NCBI RefSeq assembly: GCF_032362555.1
Contig: NC_083531.1
Coordinates: forward strand, 1,922,001 to 1,986,000
Direction: 5' to 3'
Length of the DNA stretch: 64,000 nt
Source of the DNA: Amyelois transitella
Lineage: Eukaryota; Arthropoda; Insecta; Lepidoptera; Pyralidae
The notes under the pieces are model-generated. The model had not been told where the DNA came from, ran no database searches, and was given only the letters and a program-made list of their open reading frames with translations. How positions within the stretch are numbered: the first letter of the stretch is position 1; each line of letters opens with the position of its first letter. The translations under genes and the position numbers were made by a program. This document shows, one piece after another, positions 35,021 through 41,000 of the stretch.

Positions 35021-38000
35021 CTCCAGCGCCGTCGTTGAACATGAACTCGTCCTGGTACTCCTTCAGGAACTGCTCGGAGCGGTGCTCGTCCAGGAACAGG
35101 GAGTACACCTTCTTCACGTCCTCCATGCTCACCTGTTATCATATTCCATATTACATATAGAGAATGTCGTGTGGTTTCCGATGTTTTAATATGTAAATAG
35201 TGAACCATGCTCACCTGTTATGATATTCCATATTACATATAGAGAATGTCGTGTGGTTTCCGATGTTTTAATATGTAAATAGTGAATGTCGTAAAAGACC
35301 CAGGCCAATCAGAGAAAGTTCGTTTCTCACGCCCTGGCCGGGATTCGAACCCGGGGCCATACATACATATGGTCACGTCTATATCACATGCGGGGTAGAC
35401 AGAGCCAAACGGTCCTGAAAAGACTGATGGGCCACGTTCAGCTATTTGTGTGACAGTTTGCTAGCCCATCGCCTAAAAGAAGAATCCCAAGTTTGTAAGC
35501 CTATCCCTTAGTCGCCTTTTACGACATCCATGGGAGAGAGATGGAGTAGTCCTATTCTTTTTTTTCTATTGGTGCCGGGAACCACTACAAGATATTCCAT
35601 ACTATAATGAATGCCGTGTGGTTTCCGATGTTTTAATATGTAAATAGTGAATATCGTAAAAGACCCAGGCCAAACAGAGAAAGTTCGTTTCTCACGCCCT
35701 GGGACCTCCGGTGTCACAGACAAGCGCACTACCGCTGCGCCACTGAGGCCGTCATTTTGTATATAACTTTTACTTTAAGTTTCTATTATTTTTAGAACTC
35801 TAAGTTGTGTGTTGTCAACGTTTTCAACTTTTTCTGTTTATCTTGTTTCTTATTTGTGAGGACCTTTAATTGGCTGCTTTGCTAACTAGCTTTATTTCTA
35901 CTACTATATTATGTCTGTAACTGTTGATCTTCCTATTAAAAATAAAGATGCCGTGTGGCTCCCGGCACCAATACAAAAAAGAATAGGACCACTCCAAATC
36001 TTTCCCATGGATGTCGTAAAAGGCGACTAAGGAATAGGCTTACAGACTTGGCATTCTTTTTTAGTCGATGGGCTAGCAACCTGTCACTAGTTGAATCTCA
36101 ATTCTATCGTTAAGCCAAATAGCTGTACGTGGCCATTCAGTCTTTTCAAGATTGTTGGCTCTGTCTACCCCGTAAGGGATAAAAACGTGATCATATGTAT
36201 GTATGTATGTATGTACTTACCTCAGTGGCCTTCCTCCTCTTAGCAACCAAAGAGGCTGTAGTGATGAGTTGTATGGCGTATCTGAGCGATGTTTCTGTTG
36301 CTACCCGCGTGAGGACAGTCAGGGCGTCGGCAGACATCTCACAGTCTTCTTCTTCGCATCTGTAAGGTATGTTAATGAATAATCAAATCTATACCTTATA
36401 TTGTAAAGCTGAAGAGTTTTGTTTTGTTTGTTTGAACGCGCTAATCTCAGGAGCTAACTGGTTCGAATTGAAGATATCTTTTTGCGTTGCGAATAGACTA
36501 TTTATCGAGGTAGGCTTTAGGATATATAACATCACTCTGTAACTAAGTATAAGGAGCGAAGAAACAAAGGAAAATGTGAAAAAAAGGGGAAAATTATTCA
36601 TCCTTGAGGGCTTCAATGATGGCCATAATAACTATTTCACGCGGACGAAGTCGCGGGCACAGCTAGTTTTAAATAAATAAAATTGGACGTACAATATCGT
36701 ATTTCATTTCGTCGCAACAACCAATCAAACAACTACTGTCAATCATCGCAAAGAAATTGACGCGCTCAATCAATAGCAGCGAAGAATCTAAGACGCGATT
36801 TCAAAGATTTCACTAATTGGATATACTCAAACTACTTAAACTATATAAACAACCTCCGATACAACATCGTCTGTCGCGCGGTACACCAGCTTGGCGCTCC
36901 CGCTACATTACGTTCAGCTGTTTTGGCTTAATGATAGAATTGAGATTCAAATAGTGACAGGTTCTCCACCCATCCGACCTGATGTTGAGGATCTCCCTGA
37001 GCTCGCCGTGCGGGTAGGGCGCCGTGGGCACGATGATCATGCGGTCCAGCAGGTCCAGCGGGATGCGGTATATATATATATATATATCCGACCTGATGTT
37101 GAGGATCTCCCTGAGCTCGCCGTGCGGGTAGGGCGCCGTGGGCACGATGATCATGCGGTCCAGCAGGTCCAGCGGGATGCGGTATATATATATATATATC
37201 CGACCTGATGTTGAGGATCTCCCTGAGCTCGCCGTGCGGGTAGGGCGCCGTGGGCACGATGATCATGCGGTCCAGCAGGTCCAGCGGGATGCGGTATATA
37301 TATATATATATATCCGACCTGATGTTGAGGATCTCCCTGAGCTCGCCGTGCGGGTAGGGCGCCGTGGGCACGATGATCATGCGGTCCAGCAGGTCCAGCG
37401 GGATGCGGTATATATATATATATATCCGACCTGATGTTGAGGATCTCCCTGAGCTCGCCGTGCGGGTAGGGCGCCGTGGGCACGATGATCATGCGGTCCA
37501 GCAGGTCCAGCGGGATGCGGTATATATATATATATATCCGACCTGATGTTGAGGATCTCCCTGAGCTCGCCGTGCGGGTAGGGCGCCGTGGGCACGATGA
37601 TCATGCGGTCCAGCAGGTCCAGCGGGATGCGGTATATATATATATATATATCCGACCTGATGTTGAGGATCTCCCTGAGCTCGCCGTGCGGGTAGGGCGC
37701 CGTGGGCACGATGATCATGCGGTCCAGCAGGTCCAGCGGGATGCGGTATATATATATATATATATCCGACCTGATGTTGAGGATCTCCCTGAGCTCGCCG
37801 TGCGGGTAGGGCGCCGTGGGCACGATGATCATGCGGTCCAGCAGGTCCAGCGGGATGCGGTATATATATATATATATATCCGACCTGATGTTGAGGATCT
37901 CCCTGAGCTCGCCGTGCGGGTAGGGCGCCGTGGGCACGATGATCATGCGGTCCAGCAGGTCCAGCGGGATGCGGTATATATATATATATATATCCGACCT

Positions 38001-41000
38001 GATGTTGAGGATCTCCCTGAGCTCGCCGTGCGGGTAGGGCGCCGTGGGCACGATGATCATGCGGTCCAGCAGGTCCAGCGGGATGCCGTGCGGGCTGCGG
38101 TAGGCGGTGCCGCGGATGCGCGTGATGCCGCGGTTGGTCGCCATGATGACCACCGGCGCCGTCTCCGACTCCAGCGCCCGGTTCAGGAACGAGAAGCACT
38201 CGATGTCCAGCATGTGCGCCTGGTGGGTGGGCAGAGGAACGATTAATTTTAATAACATAGGTACATGAAGAGAGTTATGAATGTGGATGAAGCAAAGGAA
38301 GTATGCAGGGATTGTGGCAAGTGGAAAGAGGTAGTCTCTGCCTACCCCTCCGGGAAAGAGGCGTGATTTTATGTATGTACATAGGTACATACATATGGTC
38401 ACGACTATATACAGAGGCAGCAGTCTTGAAAAGACTGATAGGTCACGTTCAGTTATTTGGCTTAATGATAGAATTGAGTTTCAAATAGTGACAGGTTGCT
38501 AGCACATCATCTAAAAAAAGAATACCAAGTTTGTAAGCCTATCCCTTAGTCCCGTTTTACAACATCCATGGGAAAGAGATGGAGTGGTCCTATTCTTTTT
38601 TGTATTGGTGCCGGGAACCACACGGATCTTTTAATAACATCATTGATATGGTCACGTCTATATCCCTTGCGGGGTGGATAGAACAAGCGGGTCTTGAAAG
38701 GTTGATGAGGCAACGTTCAGCTCAAAGATAGAGTTAAGATTCAAATAGTGACAGGTTGCTAGTCCGTCGGCTAAAAGAAGCAGCCCAAGTTTATAAGCCT
38801 ACCCCTTAGTCGCCTTTTTATAATCTAGAAAAAAGTATGTACCGTGTAGTTCCCGGCACCAATAGAAAAAAATAATAGTACCACTCCATCTCTTTCCCAT
38901 GGATGTCGTAAAAGGCGACTAAGGGATAGGCTTACAAACTTGGGATTCTTTTTTAGGCGATGGGCCAGCAACCTGTCACTAGTTGAATCTCAATTCTATC
39001 ATTAAGCCAAATAGCTGAACGTGGCCATTCAGTCTTTCAAGACTGTCGCCTCTGTCCACCCCGCAAGGGATATAGACGTGACCATATCAATGATGTTATT
39101 AAAAGATCCGTGTGGTTCCCGGCACCAATACAAAAATGAATAGGACCACTCCATCTCTTTCCCATGGATGTCGTAAAAAAAAGGTGTGTATGTATGTATG
39201 TAAAAAAAAAGGGTGTATGAAGCCTATAAGCCGTTGTAAGAAAAAGGTGTATGTATATAAAAAAAAGGTGTGTATGTATGTAAAAAAACGGTGTATGAAG
39301 CCTTTAAGCCGTTGTAAGAAAAAGGTGTATGTATATAAAAAAAGGTGTGTATGTATGTAAAAAAAGGTGTATGAAGCCTATAAGCCGTTGTAAGAAAAAG
39401 GTGTATGTATGTAAGAAAAAGGTGTGTATGTATGTAAAAAAAAAGGTGTGTATGAAGCCTACAAGGCCGCAAGTACCTCGTCAATGAACAGCACCCCGGG
39501 TATCATCTCGGCCTTGCCCTCCTCCCTCCACTCGGCCACTTTGCTGTTGATCTGCTCACGAATCTCCGACTTGATCTCGCCGGTGTCACCTGACATACAA
39601 ACAGACAGACATAATTTATGAGGAACTCGATAAACATACATACATACATACAATCACGTCTATATCCCTTGCGGGGTAGACAGAACCTACAGTCTTGTAA
39701 AGACTGATAGGCCACGTTCAGCTATTTGAACTCGATAAATTTTATTAGTAATTTTTTTACATACTTAACATTATGAGTTATGAATGTGGATGAAGCGAAG
39801 GAAGTATGCAGAGATCGTGGCAAGTGGAATGTGGTAGTCTCTGCCTACCCCTCCGGGAAAGAGGCGTGATTTTACATATTATATATTACATACATATGGA
39901 CACGTCTATATCCCTTGCGGGTTAGAAAGAGCCAACAGTCTTGAAAAGACTGATAGGCCACGTACAGCTATTTGGCTTAATGATAGAATTCAGATTCAAA
40001 TAGTGACAGGTTGCTAGCCCATCGCCTAAAGGAAGAATCCCAAGTTTGTAAGCCTCCTATCCCTTAGTCGCCTTTAACGACATCCATGGGAAAAGGGATG
40101 GAGTGGTCCTATTCTTTTTTGTATTGGTGCCGGGAACCACACGGCACGGCATAGTATTTTTTTTTTGCCATAAACATCGTATAGACGTGACTATACATAT
40201 GTATGTGTGCATTAAATCATTTTTATATACATATATTTATTTTTTTCTTAACATAAAACAAGATTGCTACCCCTTACAGGCTCTGTCTACCCCGCAAGGG
40301 ATATAGACGTGACCATATGTATGTATGCGAATAAAACTTACCAGAAAACAACGCCAGGAATCCGTGTGTTCTGGAGTTTATAACGTCCACTTCGTGCAAA
40401 GTGACCGTGTGTACGACTTCCTTCCGCTTCTGCAGCTCGCCTTCTGGGCACTGTACGAAGCGGGCTTGCTGGCCTGAAAAAGAAATCATCAATTTATATT
40501 CAATCTATATTATATATATAAATAAATAAATTATAAATTAAATAAATTTATATGGGACAAATTACACAGATTGAGTTAGCCTCGAAGTAAGTTCGAAACT
40601 TGTGTTACGAGATACTAACTCAACGATACTATATTTTATAATAAATACGTATATAGATAAACATCCAAGACCCAGCCCAATCAGAGAAAGTTCGTTTCTC
40701 ATCATGCCCTGGCCGGGATTCGAACCCGGGACCTCCGGTGACACAGACAAGCGCACTACCGCTGCGCCACAGAGGCCGTCCGTCCGTATATATATATATG
40801 TATATATTTGACGGCCTCTGTGGCGCAGCGGTAGTACGCTTGTCTGTGACACCGGAGGTCCCGGGTTCGAATCCCGGCCAGAGCATGGTGAGAAACGAAC
40901 TTTCTCTGATTGGCCTGGGTCTTGGATGTTTATCTATATAAGTATTTATTATAAAATATAGTATCGTTAAGTTAGTACCTCGTAACACTAGTCTCGAACT

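Follow-up and report, generated by a model that had tools for sequence, protein, structure and literature searches.

The window analysed here, 64,000 nucleotides of Amyelois transitella DNA (C27:1922001-1986000, in an assembly of 33 contigs and 327,366,114 bases), carries on its minus strand the gene for reptin (RUVBL2), in which the end of exon 9 and its splice donor occur ten times in tandem. We consider it probable that this array is a real, young minisatellite that arose from the final part of reptin exon 9, and that splicing takes place at the first donor, with the other copies behaving as intron.

The array contains ten copies of an 86-bp core without a single mismatch, the first at 38084-37999 and the last at 37064-36979 on the minus strand of the window, which is far beyond chance. 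All ten cores are followed by the identical donor CAG/GTCGGAT (the slash marks the exon end), and since every unit ends in CATCAG/GTCGG, the duplicated segment has AG/GT. The nine spacers read GTCGGAT(AT)nACCGC, with TA tracts of 19, 19, 19, 19, 17, 17, 19, 17 and 19 bases in spacer order and unit periods of 114, 114, 114, 114, 112, 112, 114, 112 and 114 bp. The original prediction had described ten copies of a unit of about 95 bases, varying only in TA length, with periods of 114 or 112 bp; the count, the periods and the sole source of variation were borne out, and the unit length came close to the 98 bp (86+7+5) measured for the invariant part. Tandem Repeats Finder (TRF) reported the array at 36972-38086 with 9.8 copies, 99% matches and a score of 2188, and as a head-to-tail series of near-identical units of tens of bases, it has the form of a minisatellite. 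RNA self-pairing of the units is not claimed: the fold of 1161 nt gave -403 kcal/mol, a raw energy that has no shuffle control at such length.

The gene itself appears intact. With exon boundaries placed from sequence and homology, 12 coding exons joined via donor 1 encode a 466-residue protein in a frame of 1401 nt including the stop, and all 11 introns are GT-AG. In a Pfam scan of four gene segments, exons 3, 8 and 9 matched TIP49 (exon 9 at 1.7e-31) and exon 10 matched TIP49_C; the exon 3 segment also gave weaker matches to 7 broader ATPase families. Exon 9 is nearer to RuvB-like 2 than to RuvB-like 1: its best PDB match was a RuvB-like 2 (7e-31), the top RuvB-like 1 followed at 3.2e-24, and the best 15 of the 28 distinct PDB sequences were RuvB-like 2, RVB2 or, in one case, a plain RuvB-like helicase. 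The assignment of the gene to reptin, of the array to exon 9 and of the start of exon 10 to 36359 was thus upheld by the Pfam and PDB matches and by exon joining. The duplicated segment includes the motif LLDR, which we take to hold the arginine finger of reptin.

TIP49 matches in the assembly numbered 17. The C27 reptin gene accounts for 8 and a second gene, located on C6 and presumably pontin, for another 8, and one weak match is on C9; among these 17, no second or processed copy of reptin was found. Since the matches outside C27 belong to the second gene on C6 or to the weak C9 hit, the C27 gene is the only reptin found in the assembly. The weak match (4.8e-4, C9:7562828-7563013) lies within an open frame of 462 residues that is probably another AAA protein. 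The TIP49 profile found matches in all 14 prokaryote control genomes, above the cut-off in 13, and weak TIP49 matches therefore carry little meaning. Intron 5 of reptin contains, on the plus strand at 45381-45719, a 112-residue open frame that by eye resembles a DDE transposase remnant and has no Pfam match at 0.001.

The array is unusual within a small base-rate sample of 264 kb, made up of the window and 20 stretches of 10 kb, one from each of C1-C20 (21 records; C21-C33 are represented by the window alone). TRF returned 93 rows for this sample, 25 of them with periods of 20 or longer and 2.5 or more copies; two of the 25 are the reptin array. The top match among the other 23 rows is 96%, and those with periods above 50 reach at most 5.6 copies, at 93%. 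Moreover, when the 327-Mb assembly was searched at the DNA level with a 340-base query (exon 9 plus one further unit), one candidate region emerged, this array, with 9 matches, although such a search scores the best candidates only and skips simple repeats, so that absence elsewhere is not proven. For a star tree, the lack of substitutions in 10 x 98 bp limits mu*T to less than about 0.003. With a mutation rate of 2.9e-9, the age of the array is up to about a million generations; this bound assumes no homogenisation and would be loosened by it. The perfect identity from which a very recent expansion had been proposed is thus confirmed, albeit with an age that is only bounded.

Both edges of the array look like imprecise joins. 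Upstream of unit 1 the exon has TACCGCAGCCCGCACGGCATCCC, whereas units 2-10 are preceded by TACCGCATCCC, which is 12 bases shorter; the 12 bp present ahead of unit 1 and missing ahead of the others are AGCCCGCACGGC. At the 3' edge, what comes after unit 10 is not a TA tract but a truncated dispersed repeat. This internal fragment of a repeat resembling a short interspersed nuclear element (SINE) spans intron positions +5 to +69, and among its 74 matches, which are partly redundant because this locus and others that overlap the window are part of the database, the start falls exactly at +5 in 31 and at +16 in 26, and the end at +69 in 45. The upstream difference between unit 1 and units 2-10, together with the truncated repeat at the 3' edge, makes both edges resemble products of imprecise end-joining.

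We spliced each donor on paper to the common acceptor of exon 10. The exonic ends of donors 1-10 lie at 37999, 37885, 37771, 37657, 37543, 37431, 37319, 37205, 37093 and 36979. Donors 1, 2, 3, 4 and 5 would keep the normal C-terminus, in proteins of 466, 504, 542, 580 and 618 residues. Donor 6 would cause a frame shift with a stop 230 nt ahead of the last junction, and donors 7, 8, 9 and 10 would lead to stops 309, 423, 535 and 649 nt ahead of it. The product of donor 6 lacks the TGA in unit 7, and its stop falls past the splice. The coordinates predicted for the first five donors, their in-frame joining to exon 10 with 38 residues added each time, and a frame open from exon 9 to 37377, where the TGA ends, all agree with these results. 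Premature stops well ahead of the last junction are, by the usual rule, targets of decay. The donor sequence CAG/GTCGGA scored 74.0 with a human donor matrix, and the other ten reptin donors scored 69.1-96.7, three of them lower. The idea of a weak donor, owing to the C at +3, was rejected because the score lies within the donor range of the gene and is no outlier.

In the sequence of events we favour, a single imprecise tandem duplication that spanned the exon-intron boundary would have joined GTCGGAT via a TA filler to exonic TACCGC, with the loss of 12 bp. Slippage or unequal exchange would have raised the unit-plus-TA period to ten copies, and slippage within the TA tracts would account for the variants of 17 and 19 bases. 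The spliceosome would mostly take donor 1 and close the 221-nt exon, leaving the other nine copies intronic in the production of a normal mRNA. Leaky splicing from donors 2-5 would place 38-residue repeats behind residue 372/373; from donors 6-10 it would lead to premature stops and, probably, to decay. The exact copies with TA length as the sole variable support this reading, as do the complete protein obtained with donor 1 and the match of all four scanned segments to TIP49 or TIP49_C. The use of donor 1 is favoured because a single gene, presumably essential, must still yield a working product.

Several considerations weigh against this preference. The same 9-mer is present at all ten donors, so sequence strength gives donor 1 no edge, and if U1 binds every site, the intron-proximal donor wins, which would favour donor 10. 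Excerpts of PMC5585400 describe SRSF1 as activating intron-proximal 5' sites and hnRNP A1 intron-distal ones, and because the two favour opposite sites, the winner among identical donors is unpredictable from sequence. Furthermore, Zhu and Niu (PMC3629103) took non-identity of repeats as lowering the chance of assembly error, an argument unusable for the reptin array because its units are identical. The reading is also drawn from the DNA of one assembly, and its donor use is a prediction.

The identity of the units is likewise what an assembly or library artefact would explain, with a true locus of one or few units multiplied by a mis-resolved repeat. A single essential gene seems an unlikely host for such an array, and none of the 23 other TRF rows is as perfect and long. 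However, the TA tracts differ in 2-bp steps and in mixed order, which seems unlike the copying of one consensus unit; the junctions hold a TA tract and the 12-bp loss, features that unit 1 lacks at its exon 9 edge; the window is without N; and an array of 1.1 kb is short relative to long reads. We regard an artefact as rather unlikely.

If the array is real, its identical donors could instead act as a splice rheostat: by competition, the reptin pre-mRNA would go partly to productive donors (1-5) and partly to non-productive ones (6-10), so that unit number and TA length would set the reptin dose or give repeat-bearing isoforms. The even division of the donors fits this idea, with the normal stop reached from 5 of 10 and a premature stop, 230-649 nt short of the last junction, from each of the other 5, but the prediction stems from geometry, and an insert of 38 residues that separates the nucleotide-binding core from the lid would probably impair the ATPase. 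Given 19-base TA tracts in 6 of the 9 spacers, the in-frame run of the first four has a chance of 10/84 (0.12); it is thus no evidence of selection, and selection for in-frame phasing was rejected. A functional rheostat appears unlikely. The proposal that a hypervariable minisatellite with ten identical live donors ties the productive mRNA fraction to unit number and TA length, and that some individuals produce reptin with 38-residue repeats, would follow from the same geometry, and we find it doubtful. Finally, intronisation by tandem duplication, after the model of Rogers, would use CATCAG/GTCGG as both acceptor and donor, so that internal stretches comprising one or several periods of 112 or 114 nt could be spliced out and any pathway could give the normal mRNA. 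AG/GT does stand at each unit end, splicing from GT to AG between units removes whole periods, precedents are described in excerpts of PMC4974935 and PMC3629103, and the pyrimidine fraction of the unit acceptor (0.45) exceeds that of the exon 11 acceptor (0.35). Yet from -24 to -5 the unit end has a T fraction of 0.15 and two AGs, whereas the 11 real reptin acceptors have T fractions of 0.25-0.70 and 10 of them are free of AG, and we judge this route very improbable.

Minisatellites in or beside genes, also called variable number tandem repeats, consist of almost perfectly identical units, each tens of bases long, arranged head to tail. The reptin unit differs from that class by holding an exon end, a donor and its own TA microsatellite, and is known from one assembly. 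The nearest known parallels are introns gained through tandem duplication in fission yeasts and in potato. Excerpts of PMC4974935 discuss how such duplications give rise to new introns, with the AGGT model, ATP2A1 and the cases from fission yeasts and potato. Just like the reptin array, the duplication in the potato RNA-dependent RNA polymerase gene, as excerpted there, crosses an exon-intron boundary and carries splice signals, whereas reptin has ten copies of an exon end and donor. The Rogers 1989 AGGT model and ATP2A1 (Hellsten 2011), as cited in the same excerpts, share with reptin a duplicated segment whose AG/GT gives both splice sites; in reptin, the AG/GT already serves an existing intron as its true donor, and the unit end looks weak as an acceptor. 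PMC3629103 describes 24-nt coding tandem repeats with introns across them, which similarly offer a proto-splice site per unit and a possible choice among copies. Those units are not fully identical and have the proto-site AGGC (given as AGGT in the excerpts of PMC4974935), whereas the reptin units hold 98 invariant bases, are identical and amplify a pre-existing donor; spliced expressed sequence tags are presented there, one removing more than the annotated intron, and the reptin array is known from DNA alone. What is distinct in reptin is the tenfold amplification of a natural donor in exact copies within a single-copy gene. No identical case was found among titles and abstract openings of the open-licence literature, which is weak evidence of absence.

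If real, the array would present a natural ten-way contest of identical 5' splice sites before one acceptor in a single-copy gene, in which donor position becomes testable at constant donor sequence. It would also be a snapshot of how duplications at exon boundaries could give rise to new introns or to alternative exon ends. If it is an artefact, it cautions that reptin isoforms with repeats could be a mere product of annotation.

Table. Positions of the reptin array, its gene and other features in the window
Feature	Position	Strand	Basis or remark
Reptin coding region, 12 coding exons, intact via donor 1	33912..48934	-	Exon joining
Reptin exon 9 ending at donor 1, contains unit 1	37999..38219	-	221 nt; begins in phase 0, stops after 2 codon bases
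Ten exact 86-bp exon-end cores and nine TA spacers	36979..38084	-	TRF, sequence inspection
First spacer, GTCGGAT(AT)nACCGC, canonical donor GT starting at 37998	37971..37998	-	Sequence, exon joining
In-frame TGA in unit 7, closes the frame for donors 7-10	37377..37379	-	Translation
65-bp internal fragment of abundant SINE-like dispersed repeat, joined at +5 of donor 10	36910..36974	-	DNA matches
Reptin exon 10, acceptor common to all ten donors (acceptor side 36359)	36221..36359	-	Pfam scan, exon joining
Frames resembling a retrotransposon without long terminal repeats	22301-26409	+	Pfam: 420-residue frame with a PHD finger; 711-residue frame with endonuclease and reverse transcriptase domains. 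Then a 260-residue frame
281-residue frame with reverse transcriptase match	60104-60949	+	RVT_1, 3.8e-13

TRF also reported a second minisatellite in the window at 13842-14352 (92-bp unit, 5.6 copies, 93% matches) and a tandem repeat at 2820-3192 (131-bp unit, 2.8 copies, 96% matches). Two minus-strand frames overlapping or adjoining the latter, 2606-2992 and 2152-2631, gave no Pfam match at 0.001. Near 1.5 Mb of C5 (L013, 890-4591), several adjacent arrays have a unit of 154-156 bp with 88-91% matches and are satellite-like.
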